Assembly (NCBI RefSeq): GCF_900105185.1
Contig: NZ_FNTJ01000001.1
Location: forward strand, 4,422,501 to 4,486,500
DNA from: Pseudomonas saponiphila
Lineage (GTDB): Bacteria > Pseudomonadota > Gammaproteobacteria > Pseudomonadales > Pseudomonadaceae
Reading direction: 5' to 3'
Length of the DNA stretch: 64,000 bases
The translations under genes and the position numbers were made by a program. Position 1 is the stretch's first letter. Each line of letters begins with the position of its first letter. Under the pieces are notes generated by a model that worked only from the letters and a program-made list of their open reading frames with translations, searched no databases and had not been told where the DNA came from. Below, piece by piece: positions 22,475-36,344 of the stretch.

Positions 22475-22887
22475 GGGAGTACCAGAGCCTTTGGCAATAA
22501 GTGAACGGGCAACGCATCGCCCGCTCGGTTTTCAATCAAGCGCTTTTCTTCAAGAGCGCTCGTGTGGCACGAATCTGTGCCGTCCCACCCCAGCAGGCAG
22601 GCTTTCTTGCAGGGCAAAAGAGCTTTGAGGCCGGGACAGATAAAAAGTCAGGGCAACAAAATGACATAAGTCGACCCTTCGTCGAATAGTAGTTGAGTGC
22701 AACCGTTCGACATTCTCACTAAAGCATTAACCTCATCATCTAGTCAGAGGCTGATCACAGCGGGCTTTGCCTGACAAACAGGATACAAAACCACCCTCGG
22801 CTTATGGCCTGGACAGCAATATCGTTACGTCCTTATGACAAAACGATCATTCACTTGCTGTGACCTATTGGTTAGAACTCAACACAG
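22475..22887. other. Intergenic region rlmKL-rmf, upstream half
   Basis: No convincing reading frame, tRNA or operator seen. It must contain both divergent promoters. The stretch 22660-22860 is A/T-richer than the flanking genes. Confidence 0.5.
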
Positions 22888-22980
22888 GTTGGCGCCGCAA
22901 TGGCGCCAACATCAAGGCTCGCCACGCCGGCAGCGAGCACCAACGGCAGAGACATTCTGCCCGACCTCAGAAGAAGGTCG
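22888..22980 (+). ncRNA. Structured leader of rmf: four successive hairpins
   Basis: Four stems follow each other with short gaps: GTTGGCGCC/GGCGCCAAC (22888-22910, 9 bp, 5-base loop), GCTCGC/GCGAGC (22917-22938), GGCAGA/TCTGCC (22945-22961, 5-base loop) and CGACCT/AGGTCG (22962-22980). They end 39 bases before the rmf ATG. No T-tract follows, so they do not look like terminators. They could be an mRNA stability or translation-control element, or part of a small RNA. Confidence 0.5.
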
Positions 22981-23019
22981 ACGGGACATAAAGCAGTCAA
23001 CAAGTGAGGGAAACACCCT

Positions 23020-24478: not shown

Positions 24479-24494
24479 TGGCATATGCCTTGCA
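24479..24494 (+). promoter_or_regulatory. Sigma-54 promoter of nasST
   Basis: TGGCATATGCCTTGCA matches the -24/-12 consensus TGGCAC-N5-TTGCW with one difference. Transcription would start near 24505, just before the leader hairpins. Nitrogen-regulated sigma-54 (NtrC) control is expected for nitrate assimilation; no NtrC site was identified. Confidence 0.75.
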
Positions 24495-24509
24495 CCCCTT
24501 TGAGCATCA

Positions 24510-24597
24510 AACCCGAGCCAATGGCGGTCCGGGTTCAAGGACAACGGCGTCGTCACCTGCGCGGGCTAGGCCCGGCCTGCGGGTACGACGCTTTTTT
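24510..24597 (+). ncRNA. Candidate NasT (ANTAR) antitermination leader of nasST
   Basis: Hairpin P1 (24510-24535) has the loop AATGGC on the stem CCCGAGCC/GGTCCGGG, extended by two A-T pairs, with one mismatch. P2 (24540-24551) has the loop AACGGC closed by GAC/GTC, only 3 bp. Both loops have A at position 1 and G at position 4, the ANTAR-target signature. The terminator starts inside P2: GCGTCGT at 24547-24553 pairs with ACGACGC at 24585-24591, with further internal pairing, then six T. P2 and the terminator are therefore mutually exclusive, 18 bases upstream of the nasS ATG. This predicts autoregulation of nasST. Confidence 0.72.
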
Positions 24598-24614
24598 ATG
24601 CAAGGTGCCCCGTC

Positions 24615-25826
24615 ATGACTGAACGCCCCAACACCCCGCTGGCCTGGGTCAATGGCAGCGATGCCCCGGAAAAGTCCGCCATCGACCTGGGCTTCATGGC
24701 CCTCACCGATTGCGCCTCGGTGGTGGTCGCCGCCACCCAGGGCTTTGCCCAGCCCTACGGACTGACCCTGAACCTCAAGCGCCAGAGCTCCTGGGCCAGC
24801 CTGCGGGACAAGCTGGTGAGCGGTGAACTGGATGCCGCCCACAGCCTGTACGGCCTGATCTACGCGGTGCACCTGGGCATCGGCGGCACCAGCCCTTGCG
24901 ACATGGCGGTGCTCATGGGCCTGAACCAGAATGGCCAGAGCATCAACCTGTCCCGCGAACTGCAGGCGCTCAAGGTGACCAGCCCTGAAGCACTCGACCG
25001 CCACGTGCACCAAAGCCGGGCGCGCCTGACCTTCGCCCAGACCTTCCCCACCGGCACCCACGCCATGTGGCTGTACTATTGGCTGGCCAGCCAGGGCATT
25101 CATCCATTGCTGGACGTCGACAGCGTGGTGGTACCGCCGCCGCAGATGGTGGCCCACCTGCAGGCCGGGCGCATCGACGGTTTCTGCGTCGGTGAACCCT
25201 GGAGCGCCAGCGCGGTGCAGCAGGACCTGGGCTTCACCCTGGCCACCAGCCAGGCGATCTGGCCCGACCACCCGGAAAAGGTCCTCGGCTGCACCCGCGC
25301 CTTCGTCGAGCAATACCCCAACACCGCCCGCGCCCTGGTGATGGCGATCCTCGAAGCCAGCCGCTTCATCGAGCAAAGTCCGGAAAACCGCCGCAGCACC
25401 GCCCAGCTGCTGAGCGCCGCCGACTACCTGAATGCCCCGTTGGCCTGCATCGAACCGCGACTGCTGGGGGACTACGCCGACGGGCTGGGCAATCGCTGGC
25501 AGGACCCTCATGCCCTGCGCTTTCACCAAAACGGCGCGGTCAACCTGCCCTACCTGTCCGACGGCATGTGGTTCATGACCCAGTTCCGCCGCTGGGGCCT
25601 GCTGCGCGAGGACCCGGACTACCTCGGCGTCGCGCGCCAGGTGCAACAACTGCAGCTGTACCGCGAAGCCGCCAGCGCGCTGGGCATCGCCGCCCGGAAC
25701 CAGGACATGCGCAGTAGCCAACTGATCGACGGCAAGGTCTGGGACGGCTCACAGCCTGCCGCCTATGCCCGCAGCTTCCGCCTGCACGCTCTCAACGACT
25801 CACCTTGCCTTGTCGCCCAGCGCTGA
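24615..25826 (+). CDS. nasS: Cytoplasmic nitrate/nitrite sensor NasS
   Basis: 403 residues, similar to NrtA/CmpA-type nitrate-binding proteins (DLGFMALTDCASVVVAATQGF; DGFCVGEPWSASAVQQDLG; PTGTHAMWLYYWLASQGI). It has no signal peptide or lipobox, unlike transport-associated homologues, which marks it as the sensor NasS. In Azotobacter, Paracoccus and Bradyrhizobium, NasS binds and inhibits NasT until nitrate or nitrite releases it. It is followed 15 bases later by nasT. Confidence 0.9.
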   Translation: MTERPNTPLAWVNGSDAPEKSAIDLGFMALTDCASVVVAATQGFAQPYGLTLNLKRQSSWASLRDKLVSGELDAAHSLYGLIYAVHLGIGGTSPCDMAVLMGLNQNGQSINLSRELQALKVTSPEALDRHVHQSRARLTFAQTFPTGTHAMWLYYWLASQGIHPLLDVDSVVVPPPQMVAHLQAGRIDGFCVGEPWSASAVQQDLGFTLATSQAIWPDHPEKVLGCTRAFVEQYPNTARALVMAILEASRFIEQSPENRRSTAQLLSAADYLNAPLACIEPRLLGDYADGLGNRWQDPHALRFHQNGAVNLPYLSDGMWFMTQFRRWGLLREDPDYLGVARQVQQLQLYREAASALGIAARNQDMRSSQLIDGKVWDGSQPAAYARSFRLHALNDSPCLVAQR

Positions 25827-25841
25827 CCGGAGCCCGCCACC

Positions 25842-26417
25842 ATGCTGCGTATCCTGCTGATCAACGACACCGCGAAGAAAGTCGGCCGGCTCAAGGCCGC
25901 ACTCAGCGAGGCCGGCTTCGAGGTGATCGACGAATCCGGCCTGACCATCGATCTGCCCGGACGCGTCGAAACGCTGCGTCCGGACGTGGTCCTGATCGAT
26001 ACCGAGTCACCCAGCCGCGACGTCATGGAGCAAGTGGTGCTGGTCAGCCGCGACCAGCCCCGGCCCATCGTGATGTTCACCGACGAACACGATCCGGGGG
26101 TCATGCGCCAGGCGATCAAGTCCGGGGTCAGTGCCTACATCGTCGAAGGCATCCAGGTCCAGCGCCTGCAACCCATCCTCGACGTGGCCATGGCGCGCTT
26201 TGAAAGCGACCAGGCCCTGCGCGCGCAGCTCCAGGCCCGGGAGCAGCAACTGGCCGAACGCAAGCGCATCGAACTGGCCAAGGGTCTGCTGATGAAAATG
26301 AAGGACTGCGACGAAGAACAGGCCTATACCCTGATGCGCCGCCAGGCCATGAGCAGACAGCAGAAACTGATCCAGGTGGCGGAACAGATCATCGCCATGC
26401 AGGAACTCCTCGGCTGA
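25842..26417 (+). CDS. nasT: ANTAR-domain antiterminator NasT
   Basis: 191 residues. The N-terminal receiver-like domain (1-120) keeps Asp53 (LIDTES), but the usual conserved lysine after the fourth strand is absent (SAYIVEGI), so ordinary phosphorelay control is doubtful. A linking helix leads to a C-terminal ANTAR domain (about 128-188: ERKRIELAKGLLMKMK, then EEQAYTLMRRQAMSRQQKL). ANTAR proteins bind tandem hexaloop hairpins in nascent RNA and prevent termination. Three such leaders occur within 6 kb (24510-24597, 26562-26648, 29962-30052), including its own. Confidence 0.93.
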   Translation: MLRILLINDTAKKVGRLKAALSEAGFEVIDESGLTIDLPGRVETLRPDVVLIDTESPSRDVMEQVVLVSRDQPRPIVMFTDEHDPGVMRQAIKSGVSAYIVEGIQVQRLQPILDVAMARFESDQALRAQLQAREQQLAERKRIELAKGLLMKMKDCDEEQAYTLMRRQAMSRQQKLIQVAEQIIAMQELLG

Positions 26418-26427
26418 GCCTCCTCCC

Positions 26428-26509
26428 GTAGGAGCCGGCTTGCCGGCGAATGGGCCGCTGAACCTTGCGCCAGTCTTGAGGGGGCCTTCGCTGGCAAGCC
26501 AGCTCCTAC
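26428..26509. repeat. REP-like inverted repeat downstream of nasT
   Basis: GTAGGAGCCGGCTTGCCGGC at 26428 pairs with GCTGGCAAGCCAGCTCCTAC ending at 26509, around about 36 bases. It is a copy of the intergenic palindrome family of this chromosome, placed between nasT and the sigma-54 promoter of the transporter gene. Confidence 0.85.
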
Positions 26510-26531
26510 AGCCTGCTCCTGCGACAGGGGT

Positions 26532-26547
26532 TGGCGCGGCTCTTGCT
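26532..26547 (+). promoter_or_regulatory. Sigma-54 promoter of the nitrate transporter operon
   Basis: TGGCGCGGCTCTTGCT matches TGGCAC-N5-TTGCW with a single difference. The predicted start near 26558 places the first leader hairpin at the very 5-prime end of the RNA. Confidence 0.75.
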
Positions 26548-26561
26548 ACCAGATCCACACC

Positions 26562-26648
26562 GGTAACCAACGGCGGTTGCCCACCTACGACAAAGACGTC
26601 GCGCGCCCTGCTCGCCCACCGCGAGCCGGGCGCCGACGTCTTTGTCGT
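26562..26648 (+). ncRNA. Candidate NasT (ANTAR) antitermination leader of the transporter gene
   Basis: P1 (26562-26581) has a 7-bp stem GGTAACC/GGTTGCC and loop AACGGC. P2 (26588-26601) is CGAC/GTCG with loop AAAGAC. Both loops fit A-N-N-G-N-N. The whole of P2 is the 5-prime arm of a much larger hairpin: 26587-26601 pairs perfectly over 15 bases with 26634-26648, and inner pairings (GCGCCC/GGGCGC; GCTCGC/GCGAGC) continue to a CCACC loop. T residues lie in and just after the 3-prime arm, a weaker U-tract than at the other two leaders. The transporter ATG is 97 bases downstream. Confidence 0.72.
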
Positions 26649-26744
26649 TCTGGCCCCACTGAACGGGGCCGGTGGCGCGGCCACACGGCGCTCCACCTGC
26701 AGGCTCATGACGGCTCCAACGACCCCTATCAGCTGAGGTGCGCG

Positions 26745-27956
26745 ATGAATTCAAGCTTCTGGAAATCCGGCCATACCCCGACCCTGTTTGCAGCCTTCCT
26801 GTATTTCGACCTGAGTTTCATGGTCTGGTACCTGCTGGGCCCCCTGGCGGTGCAGATCGCCGCCGATCTGCACCTGAGCACCCAGCAACGCGGCCTGATG
26901 GTGGCCACGCCCATCCTCGCCGGCGCGCTGCTGCGCTTCATCATGGGCCTGCTGGCCGACCGCCTGTCACCGAAAACCGCCGGCCTGATCGGCCAGGTGA
27001 TTGTCATCGGCGCCCTGTTCGTGGCCTGGAAACTGGGCATCCACAGCTATGAACAAGCCTTGTTGCTCGGGGTGTTCCTCGGCATGGCCGGGGCCTCCTT
27101 CGCGGTGGCCCTGCCCCTGGCCTCACAATGGTATCCGCCGCAACACCAGGGCAAGGCCATGGGCATCGCCGGGGCCGGCAACTCCGGCACCGTGTTCGCC
27201 GCCCTGATCGCCCCGCTGCTGGCGGCGGCTTTCGGCTGGAGCAATGTCTTCGGCTTTGCCCTGATCCCGCTGATCCTGACCCTGGCGCTGTTCGCCTGGC
27301 TGGCGCGCAACGCTCCAGAGCGACCTCGCGCCAAGTCCATGGGCGACTACTTCAAGGCCCTGGGCGACCGCGATAGCTGGTGGTTCATGTTCTTCTACAG
27401 CGTGACCTTCGGCGGCTTCATCGGCCTGGCCAGCGCCCTGCCCGGCTACTTCAACGACCAGTACGGCCTGAGCCCGGTGACCGCCGGCTACTACACCGCC
27501 GCCTGCGTCTTCGGCGGCAGCCTGATGCGCCCCCTGGGCGGTGCCCTGGCCGACCGTTTTGGCGGCATCCGTACCTTGCTGGCGATGTACGGCGTGGCCG
27601 TGGTGTGCATCGCCGCCGTCGGCTTCAACCTGCCCAATTCCTACGCCGCCCTGGCCTTGTTCGTCTGCACCATGCTCGGCCTGGGCGCGGGCAATGGCGC
27701 GGTGTTCCAGCTGGTGCCGCAGCGCTTTCGCCGGGAAATCGGGGTCATGACCGGGCTGATCGGCATGGCCGGGGGCATCGGCGGCTTCGCCCTGGCCGCA
27801 GGCATGGGCGCCATCAAGCAGAGCAGCGGCAGCTATCAGCTGGCCCTGTGGCTGTTCGCCAGCCTCGGGGTCCTGGCCTGGTTCGGCCTGCATGGGGTCA
27901 AGCGCCGCTGGAGAACCACCTGGGGCGCCGCCGCTATCACCGCAGCGCGGGTCTGA
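26745..27956 (+). CDS. nasA: NarK/NasA-type nitrate/nitrite MFS transporter
   Basis: 403 residues from ATG 26745, with GAGGTG upstream. About twelve transmembrane helices of the major facilitator superfamily. Both nitrate-signature motifs of the NNP family are present: GAGNSGTVFAALIAP (about residue 143) and GLGAGNGAVFQL (about residue 310). It imports nitrate, and possibly nitrite, for assimilation. It is first gene of a unit with the PP2C-kinase. The symbol follows P. aeruginosa usage; nasA is used for the reductase in other genera. Confidence 0.92.
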   Translation: MNSSFWKSGHTPTLFAAFLYFDLSFMVWYLLGPLAVQIAADLHLSTQQRGLMVATPILAGALLRFIMGLLADRLSPKTAGLIGQVIVIGALFVAWKLGIHSYEQALLLGVFLGMAGASFAVALPLASQWYPPQHQGKAMGIAGAGNSGTVFAALIAPLLAAAFGWSNVFGFALIPLILTLALFAWLARNAPERPRAKSMGDYFKALGDRDSWWFMFFYSVTFGGFIGLASALPGYFNDQYGLSPVTAGYYTAACVFGGSLMRPLGGALADRFGGIRTLLAMYGVAVVCIAAVGFNLPNSYAALALFVCTMLGLGAGNGAVFQLVPQRFRREIGVMTGLIGMAGGIGGFALAAGMGAIKQSSGSYQLALWLFASLGVLAWFGLHGVKRRWRTTWGAAAITAARV

Positions 27957-27963
27957 GCACGCC

Positions 27964-29634
27964 ATGGGCTTGCAACTGAGCCACGCCGAGGCCAGCGCCA
28001 GCGGCCCGCGAGCGGAAAACCAGGACGCCCTGCGCCGGGTCACCCCGGTGCCGGAGCTGGCCGCCAGCAAAGGGCTGCTGTTCGCCATCGCCGATGGCGT
28101 CAGCCAATGTGCCGATGGCGGCCTCGCCGCGCGTTCCAGCCTGCAGGCCCTGGCCCTGGACTACTACGCCACCCCGCAGACCTGGGCCGTGGCCGAAGCC
28201 CTGGAACGCCTGCTGAGCGCGCAGAATCGCTGGCTCCAGGCCAATGGCGGCGGCCAGCCGCTGCTCACCACCCTCAGCGCCCTGGTGTTGCGGGGGCAGC
28301 ACTTCACCCTGGCCCATGTCGGCGACTGCCGGGTCTATCGCTGGCATCAGCAGCAACTGCAACGCATCACCCAGGACCATGTCTGGGAACAGTCGGGCAT
28401 GCGGCATGTGCTCAAACGCGCCCTGGGCCTGGACCAGCACCTGGTGGTGGACTTTCTCGATGGCGAACTGCGCCAGGGCGAAAGCTTCCTGATGCTCAGC
28501 GACGGGGTCTGGGCCACCCTCGGCGACAGCGCCATCGCCGCCATCCTGCGCGACCAACCGGACCTGGACAGCGCGGTCGCGACCCTGGTCAGCGCCGCGC
28601 ACCTGGCCGGCAGCCAGGACAACGCCAGCGCACTGCTGGTACGGGTCGACGCGCTGGGTGAACCCAGCATCGGCGATGCCCTGCTGCACCTGCGGCAATG
28701 GCCCCTGCCACCGCCGCTGAAACCGGGGCAGCTGTTCGAGGGCTGGCAGGTCGAGGCGCTGCTCAGCCAGAGCCAGCAATCGCTGCTATACCGCGTGCGT
28801 GACGAACAGCAACAGGCCTGGCTGCTGAAAACCCTGCCGGCGGCCCTGCACAACGACCGGGCGGCCTGCCAGGGGCTGCTGTCCGAAGAGTGGTTGCTGC
28901 GCCGCGTGGCCGGGCGGCACTTTCCCCAAGTGCACGGCGGCACGTCGCGCCAGTACCTGTATTACCTGATGCGCGAGTACCCCGGGCGCACCCTGCAACA
29001 GCTGTTTCGCCACAACGGCCCCCTGCCCCTGGACCAGTGGCAGTCCCTGGCCGAGCGCCTGCTGCGGGCCGTTGGCCTGCTGCATCGCCGGCAGATCCTG
29101 CACCGCGACATCAAGCCGGACAACCTGCTGCTGGGGGACGACGGCGAACTGCGGATTCTGGATTTCGGCCTGGCTTACTGCCCGGGCTTGTCGGCGGACC
29201 CGGCGCACCTGCTACCCGGTACTCCGGGCTATATCGCCCCGGAAGCCTTCACCGGCGCCCAGCCGAGCCCGCAACAGGACCTCTATGCGGTGGGTGTGAG
29301 CCTGTATTACCTGCTGACCGGGCACTATCCCCATGGCGAGATCGAAGCCTTCCAGCGCCCGCGCTTCGGCGCTGCGGTGCCTCCCGGTCGCTACCGCCCG
29401 GACCTGCCGCACTGGCTGGAGCAAAGCCTGGAGCGCGGCGTCTGTGCCGACCCGGCCCAGCGCTATGAAACGGCGGAAGAATGGCTGCTGGCGCTGGAAC
29501 AGGGTGAGCGCCGCAGCCTGAGCCCCCGCCCGCGGCCCTTGCTGGAGCGGGAGCCGCTGAAGGTCTGGCGCGGCATTGCCCTGCTCGCCCTGCTGCTGAA
29601 CCTGATGTTGCTGCTGGCACTGCTGCATCGCTGA
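27964..29634 (+). CDS. Fused PP2C-type phosphatase and Ser/Thr protein kinase, membrane-anchored
   Basis: 556 residues from ATG 27964, 7 bases after the transporter. Residues 1-235 form a PP2C phosphatase with metal-ligand motifs ENQDA, AIADGVSQCADGG, HVGDCRVYRW, MLSDGV and GSQDNASALLV. Residues about 260-525 form a Hanks-type kinase with HRDIKPDNLLL (about 379), DFGLAYC (about 399) and the APEAF segment. A C-terminal helix (GIALLALLLNLMLLLALL) anchors it to the membrane with no outside sensor domain. P. aeruginosa has the same gene in the same place. Placement suggests reversible phosphorylation of the nitrate transporter or reductase; the substrate is unknown. Confidence 0.92.
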   Translation: MGLQLSHAEASASGPRAENQDALRRVTPVPELAASKGLLFAIADGVSQCADGGLAARSSLQALALDYYATPQTWAVAEALERLLSAQNRWLQANGGGQPLLTTLSALVLRGQHFTLAHVGDCRVYRWHQQQLQRITQDHVWEQSGMRHVLKRALGLDQHLVVDFLDGELRQGESFLMLSDGVWATLGDSAIAAILRDQPDLDSAVATLVSAAHLAGSQDNASALLVRVDALGEPSIGDALLHLRQWPLPPPLKPGQLFEGWQVEALLSQSQQSLLYRVRDEQQQAWLLKTLPAALHNDRAACQGLLSEEWLLRRVAGRHFPQVHGGTSRQYLYYLMREYPGRTLQQLFRHNGPLPLDQWQSLAERLLRAVGLLHRRQILHRDIKPDNLLLGDDGELRILDFGLAYCPGLSADPAHLLPGTPGYIAPEAFTGAQPSPQQDLYAVGVSLYYLLTGHYPHGEIEAFQRPRFGAAVPPGRYRPDLPHWLEQSLERGVCADPAQRYETAEEWLLALEQGERRSLSPRPRPLLEREPLKVWRGIALLALLLNLMLLLALLHR

Positions 29635-29660
29635 AGCCAGCAGATATCTCAGTCTCCCTG

Positions 29661-29782
29661 GCGCCTTCTGCGCAGCGGTTCGCAGCCTGCGACAACGGCT
29701 ATGCAACCCTCGGCCTGCAGACCTGTAGCTGCTGTCGAGTCACGGCGAGGCTGCGCAAGGGTCCGCAGGACCCTGCGGCGAT
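29661..29782. repeat. Second intergenic repeat type upstream of nirB
   Basis: A stretch with CGCAGCGGTTCGCAGCCTGCG near one end, CTGTAGCTGCTGTCGAG in the middle and the hairpin GGGTCCGCAGGACCC near the other. The wording resembles a second palindromic intergenic element I associate with fluorescent pseudomonads. No reading frame here looks coding. Confidence 0.45.
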
Positions 29783-29920
29783 CCCCCAGGCCGTTCATCG
29801 CCCCCAGCAGCGCCCGCAAAGAGCCGAAAGCGGGCACGACGCCTTGATTCGGTGCAACAGCCGGACTCGGCCGGAACAGAAACGCCACCAGGGCCCGATA
29901 AAACCGCGCCCCGGACAACC

Positions 29921-29936
29921 TGGCACAAGCGCTGCA
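29921..29936 (+). promoter_or_regulatory. Sigma-54 promoter of the nirBD operon
   Basis: TGGCACAAGCGCTGCA gives a perfect -24 TGGCAC and, at the correct spacing, the -12 element CTGCA (consensus TTGCW). The predicted start is near 29946. Confidence 0.78.
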
Positions 29937-29961
29937 TGAGATCAGGCAACAGACATCAAGC

Positions 29962-30052
29962 CTGGCCTTCAACGACGAAGGCCGGCTTCCCGAGAGAACG
30001 GGATCGGACAAAGGCGTCCTCGTCAGGCCACTGACGGGACGCCTTTTTTGTT
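29962..30052 (+). ncRNA. Candidate NasT (ANTAR) antitermination leader of nirBD, three hexaloops
   Basis: Three hairpins with A-N-N-G-N-N loops follow one another. The first is GGCCTTC/GAAGGCC with loop AACGAC (29964-29983, extendable to 29962-29985). The second, P1, is TCCCG/CGGGA with loop AGAGAA (29988-30003). The third, P2, is GGAC/GTCC with loop AAAGGC (30006-30019). P2 overlaps the 5-prime arm of a strong terminator: AAAGGCGTCC (30010-30019) pairs with GGACGCCTTT (30037-30046), CGTCAG with CTGACG, ending in a T-rich tail. P2 and terminator cannot coexist. nirB starts 57 bases beyond. Confidence 0.8.
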
Positions 30053-30109: not shown

Positions 30110-32563
30110 ATGAAAAAACTCAAACTGGTGATGATCGGCAACGGCATGGCTGGGGTCCGCACCCTGGAAGAGTTGCTCAAGCTGAGCGACGAGCTGTACG
30201 ACATCACCGTGTTCGGCGCCGAGCCCCACACCAATTACAACCGCATCCTGCTGTCGCCGGTGCTGGCTGGCGAACAGACGTTCGAAGACATCGTCCTCAA
30301 CGACCTGGACTGGTACCTGGAGCACGACATCAAGCTGCTGCTCAATCGCAAGGTGGTGGAAATCGACCGGATCAAACGCCGGGTGATCGCCGACGACGGC
30401 AGCCAAGCCGAGTACGACCGGCTGCTGATCGCCACCGGCTCCACCCCCTTTATCCTGCCGATCCCCGGCAAGGACCTGCAGGGTGTGATCGGCTACCGCG
30501 ATATCGCCGACACCCAGGCCATGATCGACGCCGCCAGGACCCACCAGCACGCGGTGGTGATCGGCGGCGGCCTGCTGGGCCTGGAAGCCGCCAACGGCCT
30601 CAAGCTGCGGGGCATGGACGTGACCGTGGTGCACATTGGCCAGTGGCTGCTGGAGCGACAACTGGACCAGACCAGCGGCCAGTTGCTGCAGAGCGCCCTG
30701 GAAAGCCGCGGCCTGAAATTCCGCCTCAGCGAGCAGACCCAGGCGCTGATCGATGCCGGCGACGGCCGGGTCGGTTCGGTGCAGTTCAATAATGGCGAGA
30801 TCATCCCCGCCGACCTGGTGGTGATGGCTGCCGGCATCCGCCCCAACACCGAGCTGGCGGAACGGGCCGGCCTGCCCTGCAACCGCGGGATCCTGGTCAA
30901 CGACACCCTGCAAACCTTCGACCCGCGCATCTACGCCCTTGGCGAGTGCGCCAGTCACCGGGGCATCGCCTACGGCCTGGTGGCGCCGCTGTTCGAACAG
31001 GCCAAGGTCTGCGCCAATCACCTGGCCCAGCTGGGCTTCGCCCGCTACCAGGGCTCGGTGACCTCGACCAAGTTGAAGGTCACCGGTATCGATCTGTTTT
31101 CCGCCGGGGATTTCATGGGCGGCGACGGCACCGAAACCATCACCCTCGCCGACCCCATTGGCGGGGTCTACAAGAAGCTGGTGATCAAGGACGACGTGCT
31201 GGTGGGCGCCTGCCTGTACGGCGACACCGCGGACGGCGGTTGGTACTTCCGGCAGATCCGCGAGCAGCAGGCCATCGACGCCATTCGCGACCACCTGATG
31301 TTCGGCGAGAACGCTCTTGGCGACGTCGGCCACCAGGGCCAGGACAAGGCCATGAGCATGGCCGACAGCGCCGAAGTCTGCGGCTGCAACGGGGTGTGCA
31401 AGGGCAGCATCGTCAAGGCCATCCAGGAGCACGGGCTGTTCAGCGTCGACGAGGTCAAGAAACACACCAAGGCCGCCAGCTCCTGCGGCTCCTGCACCGG
31501 CCTGGTGGAGCAGATCCTGATCAATACCGTGGGTGGTGCGGCGGACGTCAAGCCGAAAAGCGAAACAGCCATCTGCGCCTGCAGCGACCTGAACCACGGC
31601 CAGATCCGCCAGGCGATCCGCGAACAACACCTGCTGACTGTCGCCGGCACCATGAGCTACCTCAATTGGCGCACTGCCAACGGCTGCGCCACTTGCCGCC
31701 CGGCGCTGAACTACTACCTGATTTCCACCTGGCCGGGAGAGGCCCGGGACGATCCGCAATCGCGGCTGATCAACGAGCGGGCCCACGCCAATATCCAGAA
31801 GGACGGCAGCTATTCGGTGGTGCCACGGATGTGGGGCGGGGTGACCAATCCCTCCGAACTGCGGCGCATCGCCGACGTCGCCGACAAGTACCAGGTGCCC
31901 ATGGTCAAGGTCACCGGCGGCCAGCGCATCGACCTGCTGGGCATTCGCAAGGAGGACTTGCCCGGGGTCTGGAAGGACCTGGACATGCCCTCCGGCCACG
32001 CCTACGGCAAGTCCATCCGCACCGTGAAGACCTGCGTCGGCAGCGAGTTCTGCCGCTTCGGCACGCAGAACTCCACCCAGCTGGGCATCGAGCTGGAACA
32101 CGACCTGTTCAACATGTGGTCGCCGCACAAGGTCAAGCTGGCGGTGTCCGGCTGCCCGCGCAACTGCTCGGAAGCCGGGATCAAGGATGTCGGGATCATC
32201 GGCGTCGATTCCGGCTGGGAGATGTACATCGGCGGCAACGGCGGGATCAAGACCGAGGTGGCGCAGTTTTTCGTCAAGCTCAAGACCGCCGAAGAAGTGC
32301 GCGAGTACAACGGCGCGTTCCTCCAGCTGTACCGTGAAGAGGCCTTCTACCTCGAACGCACCGTGCACTACCTGCAACGGGTCGGCATGGAGCACGTGAA
32401 AAAGGCCGTGCTGGAAGACCCCGAACGGCGCAAGGCGCTGAACCAGCGCTTGCAGTTCGCCCTGTCCTTCGAGCAAGACCCGTGGCAACAGCGCCTGGCC
32501 GAGCCGCAGCTGAAAAAAGAGTACGAATCGATCCCCCTGAAACACCTGGAGGTGCCGGCATGA
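30110..32563 (+). CDS. nirB: Assimilatory nitrite reductase NAD(P)H large subunit
   Basis: 817 residues. The N-terminal FAD/NAD(P)H module begins with a Rossmann motif (VMIGNGMAGVRTLEELL; VVIGGGLLGLEAANGL). A BFD-like [2Fe-2S] domain has CGCNGVC and SSCGSCTGLVE. The siroheme and [4Fe-4S] domains carry CVGSEFC (about residue 641) and CPRNC (about residue 682). It reduces nitrite to ammonium with six electrons in the cytoplasm. It overlaps nirD by 4 bases. Confidence 0.97.
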   Translation: MKKLKLVMIGNGMAGVRTLEELLKLSDELYDITVFGAEPHTNYNRILLSPVLAGEQTFEDIVLNDLDWYLEHDIKLLLNRKVVEIDRIKRRVIADDGSQAEYDRLLIATGSTPFILPIPGKDLQGVIGYRDIADTQAMIDAARTHQHAVVIGGGLLGLEAANGLKLRGMDVTVVHIGQWLLERQLDQTSGQLLQSALESRGLKFRLSEQTQALIDAGDGRVGSVQFNNGEIIPADLVVMAAGIRPNTELAERAGLPCNRGILVNDTLQTFDPRIYALGECASHRGIAYGLVAPLFEQAKVCANHLAQLGFARYQGSVTSTKLKVTGIDLFSAGDFMGGDGTETITLADPIGGVYKKLVIKDDVLVGACLYGDTADGGWYFRQIREQQAIDAIRDHLMFGENALGDVGHQGQDKAMSMADSAEVCGCNGVCKGSIVKAIQEHGLFSVDEVKKHTKAASSCGSCTGLVEQILINTVGGAADVKPKSETAICACSDLNHGQIRQAIREQHLLTVAGTMSYLNWRTANGCATCRPALNYYLISTWPGEARDDPQSRLINERAHANIQKDGSYSVVPRMWGGVTNPSELRRIADVADKYQVPMVKVTGGQRIDLLGIRKEDLPGVWKDLDMPSGHAYGKSIRTVKTCVGSEFCRFGTQNSTQLGIELEHDLFNMWSPHKVKLAVSGCPRNCSEAGIKDVGIIGVDSGWEMYIGGNGGIKTEVAQFFVKLKTAEEVREYNGAFLQLYREEAFYLERTVHYLQRVGMEHVKKAVLEDPERRKALNQRLQFALSFEQDPWQQRLAEPQLKKEYESIPLKHLEVPA

Positions 32564-32877
32564 ACTGGCTGGATATCTGCGCCCTGGAAGAGATCAACGC
32601 CCTGGGTTCGCGCGTCATCAAGGGGCCCCGGGGCGATATCGCGATTTTTCGTACCGGCGACGATCAGGTCTTCGCCCTGGACGATCGCTGTCCGCACAAG
32701 GGCGGCCCGCTGTCCCAGGGGCTGATCTACGGCAGGCGCGTGGCCTGCCCCTTGCACAACTGGCAGATCGACCTGGAATCCGGCGAGGCCCAGGCGCCGG
32801 ACGTCGGCTGTGCCCACCGGCATCAGGCCAGGGTGCTAGCGGGCCGGGTGCAACTGATCTTGCGGGATGCCGGGTGA
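32560..32877 (+). CDS. nirD: Nitrite reductase small subunit (Rieske-like)
   Basis: 105 residues, beginning in the ATGA overlap with the nirB stop. Unlike many NirD proteins it keeps Rieske ligand motifs CPHKGG and CPLHNW, so it may hold a [2Fe-2S] cluster. It partners NirB. It ends in TGATG shared with the nitrate reductase start. Confidence 0.94.
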   Translation: MNWLDICALEEINALGSRVIKGPRGDIAIFRTGDDQVFALDDRCPHKGGPLSQGLIYGRRVACPLHNWQIDLESGEAQAPDVGCAHRHQARVLAGRVQLILRDAG

Positions 32878-35594
32878 TGCCGCGCCAGAGCACGGCCTCG
32901 ACCTGTTGCTACTGCGGGGTTGGCTGCGGCGTGCTGATCGAGCATGACGACAGGCAGATCCTCGGGGTCAGTGGCGATCCGGCGCACCCGGCCAACTTCG
33001 GCAAGTTGTGCAGCAAGGGCGCCAGCCTGCACCTGACCGGCGACCCCGGTGCCCGCGCCCTGTACCCGGAGCTGCGCCTGGGCAAGGATCTGCCCCGCAG
33101 CCGCTGCGACTGGGACAGCGCCCTGGAACACGCCGCTGGGATATTTGCCCAAACCATTGCCGAGCACGGCCCGGACAGCGTGGCGTTCTATATCTCCGGG
33201 CAATTGCTGACCGAGGACTACTACGCCTTCAACAAGCTGGCCCGGGCCCTGGTGGGCACCAACAACATCGACAGCAATTCGCGGCTGTGCATGTCCTCGG
33301 CGGTGGTGGGCTACAAGCGCAGCCTGGGGGCCGATGCGCCGCCCTGCAGCTATGAGGACCTGGAGCTGAGCGATTGCGTGATGATCGTCGGCAGCAACAT
33401 GGTCTACGCCCATCCGGTGCTGTTCCGGCGCCTGGAACAGGCCAAAAGCCAGCGTCCGCAGATGAAAGTGCTGGTGATCGACCCGCGTCGCACCGATACC
33501 TGCGATCTGGCCGACCTGCACCTGGCGATCCTGCCCGGGACCGACGTGGCCCTGTTCCACGGCATCCTCCATTTACTGCTGTGGGAAGACTGGATCGACC
33601 GAGACTTCATCCGCGAACACACCGAGGGCCTGGCCGAGTTGAAAGCCCTGGTCCGCGACTACACCCCGCCGATGGTGGCGCAGTTGTGCGGGATCAGCGT
33701 CGAGTACTTGCAGCAATGCGCGCAATGGATCGGCAACGCGGCGAGTTTTCTGTCCCTGTGGTGCATGGGGTTGAATCAGTCCAGCGCCGGTAGCGCAAAA
33801 AACAGCGCGCTGATCAATCTGCACCTGGCCACCGGGCAGATCGGCCGCCCCGGCGCCGGCCCCTTCTCGCTCACCGGCCAGCCCAATGCCATGGGCGGGC
33901 GCGAAACCGGCAGCCTGAGCAACCTGCTCCCCGGGCACCGGGAGGCCGCCGATCCCGAGCATCGCGCAGAGGTCGCCGCCTACTGGGGCGTGGAGCAGTT
34001 GCCCGCCCACCCCGGATTGAGCGCCATCGAGCTGTTTGAACAGTTGCCCAGCGGCCGGATCAAGGCCCTGTGGATCGCCTGCACCAACCCGGCACAATCG
34101 CTGCCGGACCAGAATACGGTGCGGGCGGCGCTACAGGCCTGCCCTTTCGTGGTCCTGCAGGAAGCCTTCGCCACCACGGAAACCGCAGCCTTTGCCGACC
34201 TGCTGCTACCCGCCGCCAGTTGGGGGGAGAAAGAAGGCACGGTGACCAACTCGGAACGCCGGGTTTCTCACGTGCGCCAGGCGGTGCCCGCGCCCGGCGA
34301 GGCGCGGCCTGACTGGGCCATTACCCTGGACTTCGCCCAACGCCTGGAGCGCCGCCTGCGTCCCGGCCTGCCGAGCCTGTTTGACTTCACTTGCGCCGCC
34401 CAGCTGTTCGATGAGTACAAAGGCCTGACCCAGGGCCGCGATCTGGATCTGTCCGGCCTCAGTCACCAGCTGATCGACCGCCTCGGCCCGCAGCAATGGC
34501 CCTTCCCCAACGGTGTGACACAAGGCACGCCACGCTTGTATGGCAACGGTGTATTTCCCACTGCCTCTGGCCGTGCACGCTTTATCGCCGATCCCTATGT
34601 GGCCGCCAAGGAACAGCGAGACGCGCGTTTTCCTCTGACCCTGATCACCGGTCGGCTGCGTGACCAGTGGCACGGCATGAGCCGCACCGGCACTGCGGCG
34701 CAGCTGTTTGGTCACGTCAGCGAGGCGCTGTTGAGCCTGCATCCGGACGAGTTGCGCCGGCAACGCTTGCGCGAGGGCGATCTGGTGAGCCTGAAAAGCC
34801 GGCGTGGCAGCGTGATTGTCGCCGTCGCCCGTGATGACGGCGTGCGCCCCGGCCAGGCGTTCCTGCCCATGCACTGGGGCGATCGCTTCCTCAAGGGCGG
34901 GGTCAACGCCGTGACTCAATCGGCCTTCGATCCCCTGTCCAAACAGCCGGAGCTCAAGCACAGCGGCGTGCGCCTGGAACCGGTGCAACTGCCCTGGCAG
35001 TTGTTCGCCCTGATCGAAGGCGAGGTACAGGCCCACTTCAAGGTTCTGCGTCCGCTGTGCGAAGCCTTTGCCTATGTCAGTTTCAGCCTGAGCGGTCGTG
35101 AGCGCCCGGCCCTGGTGATCCGCGCCGCCCACCAGGAAGCGCCGCTGCCGGCATTGCTCAAGCTGATCGACCAGCAGTTGGGGCTGGAAGGTGGGCCGGT
35201 CCTGGCCTACGACGATCCGCGCCGGGCCATCGGCAAGCGCGTGCGTATCGAACAAGGACGGATCACCGCGATCCGACTGGCCGGGGAAACCCTGGCCCAG
35301 CACTGGTTGCAGCAGTTGTGGCTCGAAGGCCGCGCCGATGAGCAACTGCGCCGCTGGCTGCTGGCGCCGATGAGCGCCCCGCCGCAGGCCAGCGGCCTGG
35401 GCGGAACACGGCAACGAACCCTGTGCAACTGCAAGAACGTCAGCTATCAGGCGGTAGGGGCCGGTATCGCTGAAGGCCTGGACCTTGAACAACTGCAACA
35501 GCAATTGGGCTGCGGTAGCCAATGTGGCTCCTGCGTGCCGGAGATCAAGCGTCTGCTGGCGGCGGCAGTGCAACCTGCCAGCCTCCCTGTGTGA
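32877..35594 (+). CDS. nasC: Assimilatory nitrate reductase catalytic subunit
   Basis: 905 residues from ATG 32877; a GTG at 32874 is an alternative. The N-terminal [4Fe-4S] site is TCCYCGVGCGV with the fourth cysteine in KLCSKG. The bis-molybdopterin guanine dinucleotide domains follow (GTNNIDSNSRLCMSSAVVG; HWGDRFL). The C-terminal BFD-like [2Fe-2S] domain (about 845-895) has CNCKNVSY and CGSQCGSC, which can accept electrons from a separate reductase. No signal peptide, so cytoplasmic. Together with nirBD it converts nitrate to ammonium. Gene names for this enzyme vary between genera. Confidence 0.95.
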   Translation: MPRQSTASTCCYCGVGCGVLIEHDDRQILGVSGDPAHPANFGKLCSKGASLHLTGDPGARALYPELRLGKDLPRSRCDWDSALEHAAGIFAQTIAEHGPDSVAFYISGQLLTEDYYAFNKLARALVGTNNIDSNSRLCMSSAVVGYKRSLGADAPPCSYEDLELSDCVMIVGSNMVYAHPVLFRRLEQAKSQRPQMKVLVIDPRRTDTCDLADLHLAILPGTDVALFHGILHLLLWEDWIDRDFIREHTEGLAELKALVRDYTPPMVAQLCGISVEYLQQCAQWIGNAASFLSLWCMGLNQSSAGSAKNSALINLHLATGQIGRPGAGPFSLTGQPNAMGGRETGSLSNLLPGHREAADPEHRAEVAAYWGVEQLPAHPGLSAIELFEQLPSGRIKALWIACTNPAQSLPDQNTVRAALQACPFVVLQEAFATTETAAFADLLLPAASWGEKEGTVTNSERRVSHVRQAVPAPGEARPDWAITLDFAQRLERRLRPGLPSLFDFTCAAQLFDEYKGLTQGRDLDLSGLSHQLIDRLGPQQWPFPNGVTQGTPRLYGNGVFPTASGRARFIADPYVAAKEQRDARFPLTLITGRLRDQWHGMSRTGTAAQLFGHVSEALLSLHPDELRRQRLREGDLVSLKSRRGSVIVAVARDDGVRPGQAFLPMHWGDRFLKGGVNAVTQSAFDPLSKQPELKHSGVRLEPVQLPWQLFALIEGEVQAHFKVLRPLCEAFAYVSFSLSGRERPALVIRAAHQEAPLPALLKLIDQQLGLEGGPVLAYDDPRRAIGKRVRIEQGRITAIRLAGETLAQHWLQQLWLEGRADEQLRRWLLAPMSAPPQASGLGGTRQRTLCNCKNVSYQAVGAGIAEGLDLEQLQQQLGCGSQCGSCVPEIKRLLAAAVQPASLPV

Positions 35595-35603
35595 GGAATG
35601 AAT

Positions 35604-36344
35604 ATGAGTGCAAAAGTCTGGCTGGTTGGCGCAGGGCCGGGGGATCCGGAGCTGTTGACCCTCAAGGCGGTGCGTGCCCTTGGCGAGGCCGAGGTGGTGC
35701 TGATCGATGATCTGGTGAACCACGCCGTGCTGGCGCACTGCCCTGGGGCACGGGTCATTGCAGTCGGCAAACGAGGAGGATGCCGTTCTACGCCCCAAGC
35801 CTTCATTCATCGCCTGATGCTGCGCTATGCCCGTCAGGGCCGCTGCGTGGTGCGCCTCAAGGGCGGCGATCCGTGCATCTTTGGTCGCGGCGGCGAAGAA
35901 GCCCAGTGGCTGAAGGAACGGGGCATCGAGGTGGAACTGGTCAACGGCATCACGGCTGGGCTGGCGGGCGCCACGCGCTGCGAGATTCCCCTGACCCTGC
36001 GCGGCGTCGCCCGGGGGGTGACCCTGGTCACCGCGCACACTCAGGATGACAGCCGCCTGAACTGGCAGGCCTTGGCGCAAAGCGGCACGACCCTGGTGAT
36101 CTACATGGGCGTGGCGAAGCTGGCGGAGATTGCCGGGCAATTGCGTGAAGGCGGCCTGGCGGCCGATACGCCGGTGGCGATGATTGAAAACGCTTCGCTG
36201 CCTGAACAGCGGGAATGTCGCAGCGATCTGGCGGGGATGGAACGGGATGCCCAGCGCTTTGCGCTCAAGAGCCCGGCGATCCTGGTGATTGGGGCCGTGG
36301 CAGCCACGGCGTCCGCCCTTGAAGCCTGCGTCGGCCAAGCCTGA
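35604..36344 (+). CDS. cobA: Uroporphyrinogen-III C-methyltransferase (SUMT)
   Basis: 246 residues from ATG 35604, chosen because GAGGA lies 6 bases upstream; ATG 35598 directly abuts that site. Family motifs are VGAGPGDPELLTLKAV, KGGDPCIFGRGGEE and VNGITAGLAGA. It methylates uroporphyrinogen III to precorrin-2, the siroheme and cobalamin precursor. As last gene of the nirBD operon it presumably supplies siroheme for NirB. Confidence 0.95.
   Translation: MSAKVWLVGAGPGDPELLTLKAVRALGEAEVVLIDDLVNHAVLAHCPGARVIAVGKRGGCRSTPQAFIHRLMLRYARQGRCVVRLKGGDPCIFGRGGEEAQWLKERGIEVELVNGITAGLAGATRCEIPLTLRGVARGVTLVTAHTQDDSRLNWQALAQSGTTLVIYMGVAKLAEIAGQLREGGLAADTPVAMIENASLPEQRECRSDLAGMERDAQRFALKSPAILVIGAVAATASALEACVGQA

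Follow-up and report, generated by a model that had tools for sequence, protein, structure and literature searches.

Predicted sigma-54 promoters and NasT-type antitermination leaders ahead of three nitrate-assimilation units, nasST included, in Pseudomonas saponiphila

In the accessible passages of two papers (PMC3369931, PMC7496416), the RNA targets of the ANTAR proteins EutV, NasR and AmiR are two hairpins, each closed by a C:G pair and carrying A at position 1 (A1) and G at position 4 (G4) of a six-base loop, the second hairpin overlapping the terminator. The terminal C:G pair, A1 and G4 were also what systematic evolution of ligands by exponential enrichment returned for NasR (PMC7496416). 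In Bradyrhizobium diazoefficiens, the available part of PMC6759348 assigns NasT a regulon with predicted hairpins in several leaders and operons; in Paracoccus denitrificans, the partial account at hand has a hairpin leader ahead of nasA and NtrC control of nasTS. An ANTAR leader ahead of nasST itself is not described in the accessible portions of either account. For other Pseudomonas, a review available in part (PMC12830290), citing Nie 2024 and also listing Romeo 2012, reports NasT binding and antitermination at the NalA/nirB leader, and the available text of PMC3973561 describes, for P. protegens Cab57, a NalA homologue that occupies the nirBD intergenic region and has sigma-54 boxes as well as a terminator. 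Here, we analysed a 64,000-nucleotide stretch of the P. saponiphila genome (the window; all positions below refer to it), in which leaders of this type precede three nitrate-assimilation (nas) units.

The units follow one another in the order nasS-nasT, narK-kinase and nirB-(gap 32564-32873)-nasA-cobA, with one leader ahead of each of the three. The gap between nirB and nasA probably holds nirD. We consider it very probable that these units are under two-signal control, by sigma-54 promoters and by antitermination leaders that NasT reads, NasST being autogenously controlled. Each unit would be driven by a sigma-54 promoter, responding to nitrogen limitation. The short leader RNA would end at an intrinsic terminator, except when two upstream hexaloop hairpins (P1 and P2) were held by an ANTAR protein; the second of these hairpins would share bases with the 5′ arm of the terminator. 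NasT is the likely binder, and NasS would presumably restrain it until nitrate or nitrite is present, a release step taken from the literature on relatives. Expression would require both nitrogen shortage, for the promoter, and nitrate, for read-through. Because one leader lies ahead of NasT's own operon, NasST would be autogenously antiterminated. We base this on sequence, predicted folds, covariation, conservation and co-occurrence; what we infer is that the promoters are active, that NasT acts on the leaders of narK and of its own operon, and that there is a positive feedback. The nirB leader is known and the narK leader is catalogued, a status that the original prediction, supported here in the main, had left unmentioned; the autogenous nasST leader appears to be a further member of the NasT-type leaders. 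Whereas the leaders share the two hairpins, A1 and G4, the C:G closure and the P2-terminator overlap with the described ANTAR targets, they differ from them in that a further conserved helix separates the two sites of the nirB leader and in that the nasS leader lies ahead of the regulator's own operon. No report of such a nasST leader was found in the literature searched, which was mostly open-access and is weak evidence of novelty. The elements of the three leaders are as follows.

24479..24494, + strand: predicted sigma-54 promoter of nasST, TGGC-N7-TTGCA, GG at 24480-24481 and GC at 24492-24493 (sequence)
24510..24535, + strand: nasS leader hairpin P1, loop AATGGC at 24520-24525 (fold; covaries in 62 sequences)
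24540..24551, + strand: nasS leader hairpin P2, 3 bp GAC/GTC, loop AACGGC at 24543-24548 (sequence)
24546..24597, + strand: intrinsic terminator of the nasS leader, its 5′ arm starting at 24546 and its T-tract at 24592-24597 (fold)
26532..26547, + strand: predicted sigma-54 promoter of the narK unit, GG at 26533-26534 and GC at 26545-26546 (sequence)
26562..26581, + strand: narK leader P1, loop AACGGC at 26569-26574 (fold; Rfam RF03032)
26588..26601, + strand: narK leader P2, 4 bp, loop AAAGAC at 26592-26597 (growing-transcript and truncated-leader folds)
26587..26649, + strand: narK leader terminator, 5′ arm holding all of P2, T-tract 26639-26649 (fold, 15-bp lower stem)
29921..29936, + strand: predicted sigma-54 promoter of the nirB unit, GG at 29922-29923 and GC at 29934-29935 (sequence)
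29959..29987, + strand: nirB leader hairpin 1, loop AACGAC at 29971-29976, probable ANTAR P1 (fold; the nasS model aligns P1 here)
29988..30003, + strand: nirB leader middle hairpin, loop AGAGAA at 29993-29998, closed by G:C, probable spacer helix (closing pair in relatives)
30006..30019, + strand: nirB leader hairpin 3, GGAC/GTCC, loop AAAGGC at 30010-30015, probable ANTAR P2 (growing-transcript folds)
30010..30049, + strand: nirB leader terminator, 5′ arm overlapping hairpin 3, T-tract 30044-30049 (fold; sequence)

The original prediction had proposed that the three units begin with one and the same ordered module. A strict pattern was searched for: two C:G-closed hexaloop hairpins with A1 and G4, followed by a terminator whose 5′ arm starts within the second loop or in the 3′ strand of that hairpin. 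The window gave precisely these three places, all on the + strand and none on the - strand, with or without a promoter requirement. In the best 80 of 481 relatives by NasT (the related loci; 1.598 Mb, both strands), the pattern was found ahead of nasS in 69/80, narK in 79/80, nirB in 66/66, once ahead of cobA and nowhere else, and there was no match in the reversed loci or in ten Markov windows. With a looser first scan, which allowed the middle nirB hairpin as second loop, the same three window places were recovered, plus two when no promoter was required; its strays numbered two in the related loci, two in the reversed loci and one in ten Markov windows, and the leader counts were unchanged. 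Under looser patterns, the related loci showed the nasS pair in 76/80, the narK pair in 80/80 and all three nirB hairpins in 66/66. The seven predicted loops start where they had been placed, at 24520, 24543, 26569, 26592, 29971, 29993 and 30010; all seven have A1 and G4, and six of the seven are closed by C:G. Every hairpin of the three tandem pairs has at least 3 bp, P2 of nasS exactly 3 bp.

The covariance-model check proposed with the original prediction gave a concordant result. A model built solely from 62 nasS leaders had as its top matches in the window the nasS leader (83.1 bits), the nirB leader (29.8 bits, E 1.2e-7) and the narK leader (26.7 bits, E 1.2e-6). Model searches of the window's genome found only the three leaders. 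A fourth candidate, on contig 2 (22.1 bits), was rejected: 20 nucleotides replace part of the P1 loop and it ends in CUAUUUC, not in a T-tract. In all three predicted folds, the 5′ arm of the terminator overlaps the last hexaloop hairpin. Fold energies for nasS, narK and nirB were -45, -68.2 and -56.8 kcal/mol, with z values against shuffles of -2.4, -9.9 and -6.4. When growing transcripts were folded in silico, P1 and P2 appeared and P2 was lost once the terminator was complete, distinctly so in narK and nirB but only marginally in nasS.

As had been proposed, a TGGC-N7-TTGCW-like element stands ahead of each unit: the GG-N10-GC core is present in the predicted promoters of all three leaders, and the nasST element of sigma-54 type is kept in 80/80 related loci. 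A 2025 survey, available in part, also predicted sigma-54 promoters ahead of nasT-type genes (PMC12316311). Two Rfam matches extend over these elements. The narK RNA match starts at 26533 and so includes the narK promoter element, and the P11 match, at 29909-30043, encloses that of nirB. Since both begin at or 5′ of the -24 element, their 5′ parts would be promoter and not RNA, if the sigma-54 reading is right; the two matches would then contain what looks like an untranscribed promoter.

The ANTAR domain attributed to the locus-encoded NasT was recovered (PF03861, 61.3 bits, residues 134-184). It is the only ANTAR match in the window's genome, which makes NasT the likely reader of the leaders. 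Among 119 genomes of the genus, leader-model matches occur in 99 of the 107 with an ANTAR match as compared to 2 of the 12 without one, both weak (Fisher p 2.4e-8). In these 12, P11 was found in none and narK RNA in one (G086). They also seem to be without a nirB orthologue, since the best-scoring match covers residues 5-283 of 817 at 37% identity and none spans most of the protein. G086, a genome without an ANTAR match, keeps its narK-type leader (locus L178) ahead of a truncated reductase frame, whose match to NasA is confined to residues 2-117; this fits a possible relic of a lost regulon.

To characterise the nasS leader, 62 sequences were aligned, the window's and those of 61 of 74 distinct relatives, four leaderless loci being left out. 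In loop 1, A1 and G4 are both found in 62/62 sequences; in loop 2, in 61/62 and 62/62, respectively. P1 and the terminator together (16 pairs) are paired in 94.8% of the cells, as compared to 33-56% for control structures slid along the alignment, and the terminator arms are paired in 100%. Double-sided changes occupy 79 cells, whereas shuffled alignments have 27 on average; all but two of the 79 (77) lie in P1. Stem covariation across species, whose absence would have refuted the original prediction, is thus found in nasS P1, the P2 stem being too invariant to give information. Spacing from loop 1 to loop 2 is 23-24 nucleotides in 71 of 76 leaders. Five others (L033, L055, L061, L077, L081) have 14-15 extra nucleotides between the hexaloop hairpins, for a spacing of 37-38, and this longer linker echoes the extra helix of the nirB leader. 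An apparent loss of the nasS hairpins in most relatives was an artefact of a filter demanding three contiguous closing pairs; the alignment shows that the third pair is often mismatched.

Across the genus, at least 76 of 106 genomes (the 107 with an ANTAR match minus G051; a few best matches are in long open frames that are perhaps not NasT) have a model match 1.7-2.0 kb 5′ of the ANTAR domain, and the nasST leader went undetected in 30. Twenty of these 30 were inspected by eye. The hairpin-terminator unit was seen in none; 15 retain TGGC-N7-[TC]TGC 45-92 nucleotides 5′ of nasS and five do not match this pattern. In the related loci, the leader is lost and the promoter retained in 4/80. A family-wide sample of 20 loci, also judged by eye, contained nasS in 18. 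A full leader is seen in eleven of them, which belong to six genera besides the window's own; among the other seven, one leader is degenerate (L130), three loci have a sigma-54-like element only and three have neither near nasS. The full nasS leader of L123 has the loop GCTGCA. The simplest history suggested by these comparisons is that the leader would be old and would have been lost several times, mostly leaving the promoter behind.

On balance, we lean towards a fuller account, in which NasST is an autogenously antiterminated nitrate sensor. Its old leader would create a nitrate-gated positive feedback and a switch-like regulon; several lineages would have been converted to simple nitrogen control by losing P1, P2 and the terminator while keeping the sigma-54 promoter; and the two-site ANTAR target could hold a whole inserted helix, at an effective spacing of about 23-26 nucleotides. 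Strains with the promoter kept and the leader lost would offer a natural series for gauging directly what autogenous antitermination is worth.

Several observations weigh against the two-signal reading given above. First, the leader is dispensable, as shown by the 30 genomes in which it went undetected. Second, the number of nasS pairs with a double change is 7 against 5.3 in shuffled alignments, a value reached by 28 of 500 shuffles, and such shuffles do not remove the relatedness of the sequences. Third, nasS P2, an invariant stem of 3 bp, is present at only 3 of 15 lengths of the growing-transcript folds, and P1 is absent at two lengths and likewise in the truncated-leader fold. Fourth, no NtrC sites stand out above chance, with 70 loose matches in the window for 56 ± 8 expected. 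Fifth, the T-tract of the narK terminator (26639-26649) is interrupted in the window (TCTTTGTCGTT), while the relatives inspected mostly have an unbroken run of at least 4 T; given this break, the window's narK terminator may be weak. Finally, the co-occurrence with NasT is confounded, because the ANTAR-less genomes seem to have lost the whole locus.

Some of these points would suit an alternative in which NasT switches just the nirB and narK leaders. That of nasST would then be a relic in decay, and its terminator would do no more than hold NasST at a low, fixed level. The losses with the promoter kept, the genus genomes in which the leader went undetected and the short P2, weak in the folds, all go in this direction. 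However, where the leader is present, its loops hardly vary at positions 1 and 4, the terminator arms are paired throughout, P1 covaries, which is unexpected for a relic, and the full leader is also found in six other genera. We therefore regard a relic as unlikely and retain autogenous antitermination of nasST.

The nirB leader is a member of the Rfam family P11 (RF00625; 29909-30043, 114.8 bits for a gathering score of 70). All seven loops had originally been proposed as ANTAR sites. The loop sequences agree with this, but AGAGAA is doubtful, its closing pair being G:C in 66/66 relatives. This leaves hairpins 1 and 3 as the probable ANTAR pair. Indeed, the nasS-only model places P1 and P2 on hairpins 1 and 3, with the middle hairpin left over as inserted sequence, and 1 and 3 are also the two that the strict scan joins. 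The spacing from loop 1 to loop 3 is 39-42 nucleotides, that is 23-26 without the 16-nucleotide middle hairpin, which is probably a spacer helix, as far as comparison of sequences can tell. P11 and NalA are probably the same RNA, judging from their place and description, the accessible NalA passages not carrying the name P11. Nothing essential differs between the window's nirB leader and NalA/P11; the present analysis adds the promoter inside the Rfam match and the probable spacer role of the middle hairpin.

Rfam types P11 as a small-RNA gene, and strong terminators are predicted 5′ of the start codons. One could thus picture the leaders as mainly terminated small RNAs, read-through into the mRNA being secondary. 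This appears improbable: in the scanned relatives the motif lies less than 300 nucleotides from co-directed nas genes, the tandem ANTAR layout is that of attenuation systems, and NalA is described, in the accessible text, as a leader required for operon expression. We thus continue to read the three elements as antitermination leaders.

The narK leader belongs to the narK RNA family of Rfam (RF03032; 26533-26602, 73.9 bits for a gathering score of 43.2), for which no paper assigning a function was found in the literature searched. We propose one: the first ~14 positions of the family would correspond to a sigma-54 promoter and the remainder to a NasT leader. The Rfam model also covers leaders of a reductase located away from nasT and, below the cut-off, the nasS leader (33.1 bits, E 4.9e-4). 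In the narK leaders, loop 1 and loop 2 are spaced by 23-24 nucleotides in 80/80. For the P1 stems of narK and nirB, pair types were tallied only, and their P2 stems are too invariant to inform. That the narK RNA would answer to another factor, a small-molecule riboswitch ligand or another protein, is likewise improbable: Rfam types it as Cis-reg with no ligand or protein named and the motif is present in the ANTAR-less G086, but the G086 copy looks like a relic, the motif occurs in no other of the 12 ANTAR-less genomes, and the nasS model recognises the narK leader. Antisense model matches at the narK terminator were discarded, as they reflect its palindrome. Between the terminator and narK (26651-26685), a second inverted repeat (GGCCCC...GGGGCC) is seen by eye in many relatives and is gone in some, such as L040.

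The genes of the locus are the following.

24615..25826, + strand: nasS, NMT1-like nitrate/nitrite sensor protein (Pfam PF13379)
25842..26417, + strand: nasT, receiver-like domain and ANTAR domain (PF03861)
26745..27956, + strand: narK-type nitrate/nitrite transporter of the major facilitator superfamily (Pfam PF07690)
27964..29634, + strand: fusion of a PP2C phosphatase and a Ser/Thr kinase, in the narK unit (Pfam PF13672 and PF00069)
30110..32563, + strand: nirB, nitrite reductase large subunit (Pfam)
32874..35594, + strand: assimilatory nitrate reductase, a molybdopterin oxidoreductase (Pfam)
35598..36344, + strand: cobA-type tetrapyrrole methylase (Pfam PF00590)

The receiver domain of NasT scores 29.5 bits with Pfam, slightly below the cut-off. 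With NCBIfam, both formate dehydrogenase alpha and NasA/NasC models match the nitrate reductase, all below cut-off. The closest relatives of the window's NasT share 97% identity with it; two carry the name P. protegens, which places the locus in the P. protegens group. The phosphatase-kinase fusion 3′ of narK has a homologue in 80/80 related loci.

Further leaders are found in relatives, and the loop, closing-pair and terminator pattern gives a simple sequence rule with which to list NasT targets in Pseudomonas genomes, several of them away from nasT. In 7 of 20 loci examined, model matches stand 5′ of a gene for a NasS-like protein (31-65% identity) that is presumably the binding component of an ATP-binding cassette nitrate transporter. 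Twenty further narK RNA matches were chosen away from nasT. Nineteen are directly 5′ of a NasA-like reductase with 40-43% identity, whose copy in G086 is broken; the one such reductase tested, from L173, has a flavodoxin domain at its C-terminus. The remaining match is 5′ of a porin-like gene that has a PilJ-domain protein encoded after it (L191, 1242-1360), and a leader of this porin type is likewise present in L133 (6420-6545). In other lineages, the porin-like gene might thus extend the regulon to the outer membrane. In L061, where no nirB was matched, a strict-scan leader stands directly 5′ of cobA (~13861).

Three minor features of the window may be added. An ARAGORN call of a tRNA-Ala was set aside as a false positive, as it overlaps the narK/kinase coding sequence. 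In the nasT-narK interval, an inverted repeat resembling repetitive extragenic palindromic elements (GTAGGAGC...GCTCCTAC) was noticed by eye at 26425-26510. An rmf RNA (RF01755) match lies at 22868-23001, with 124.3 bits.

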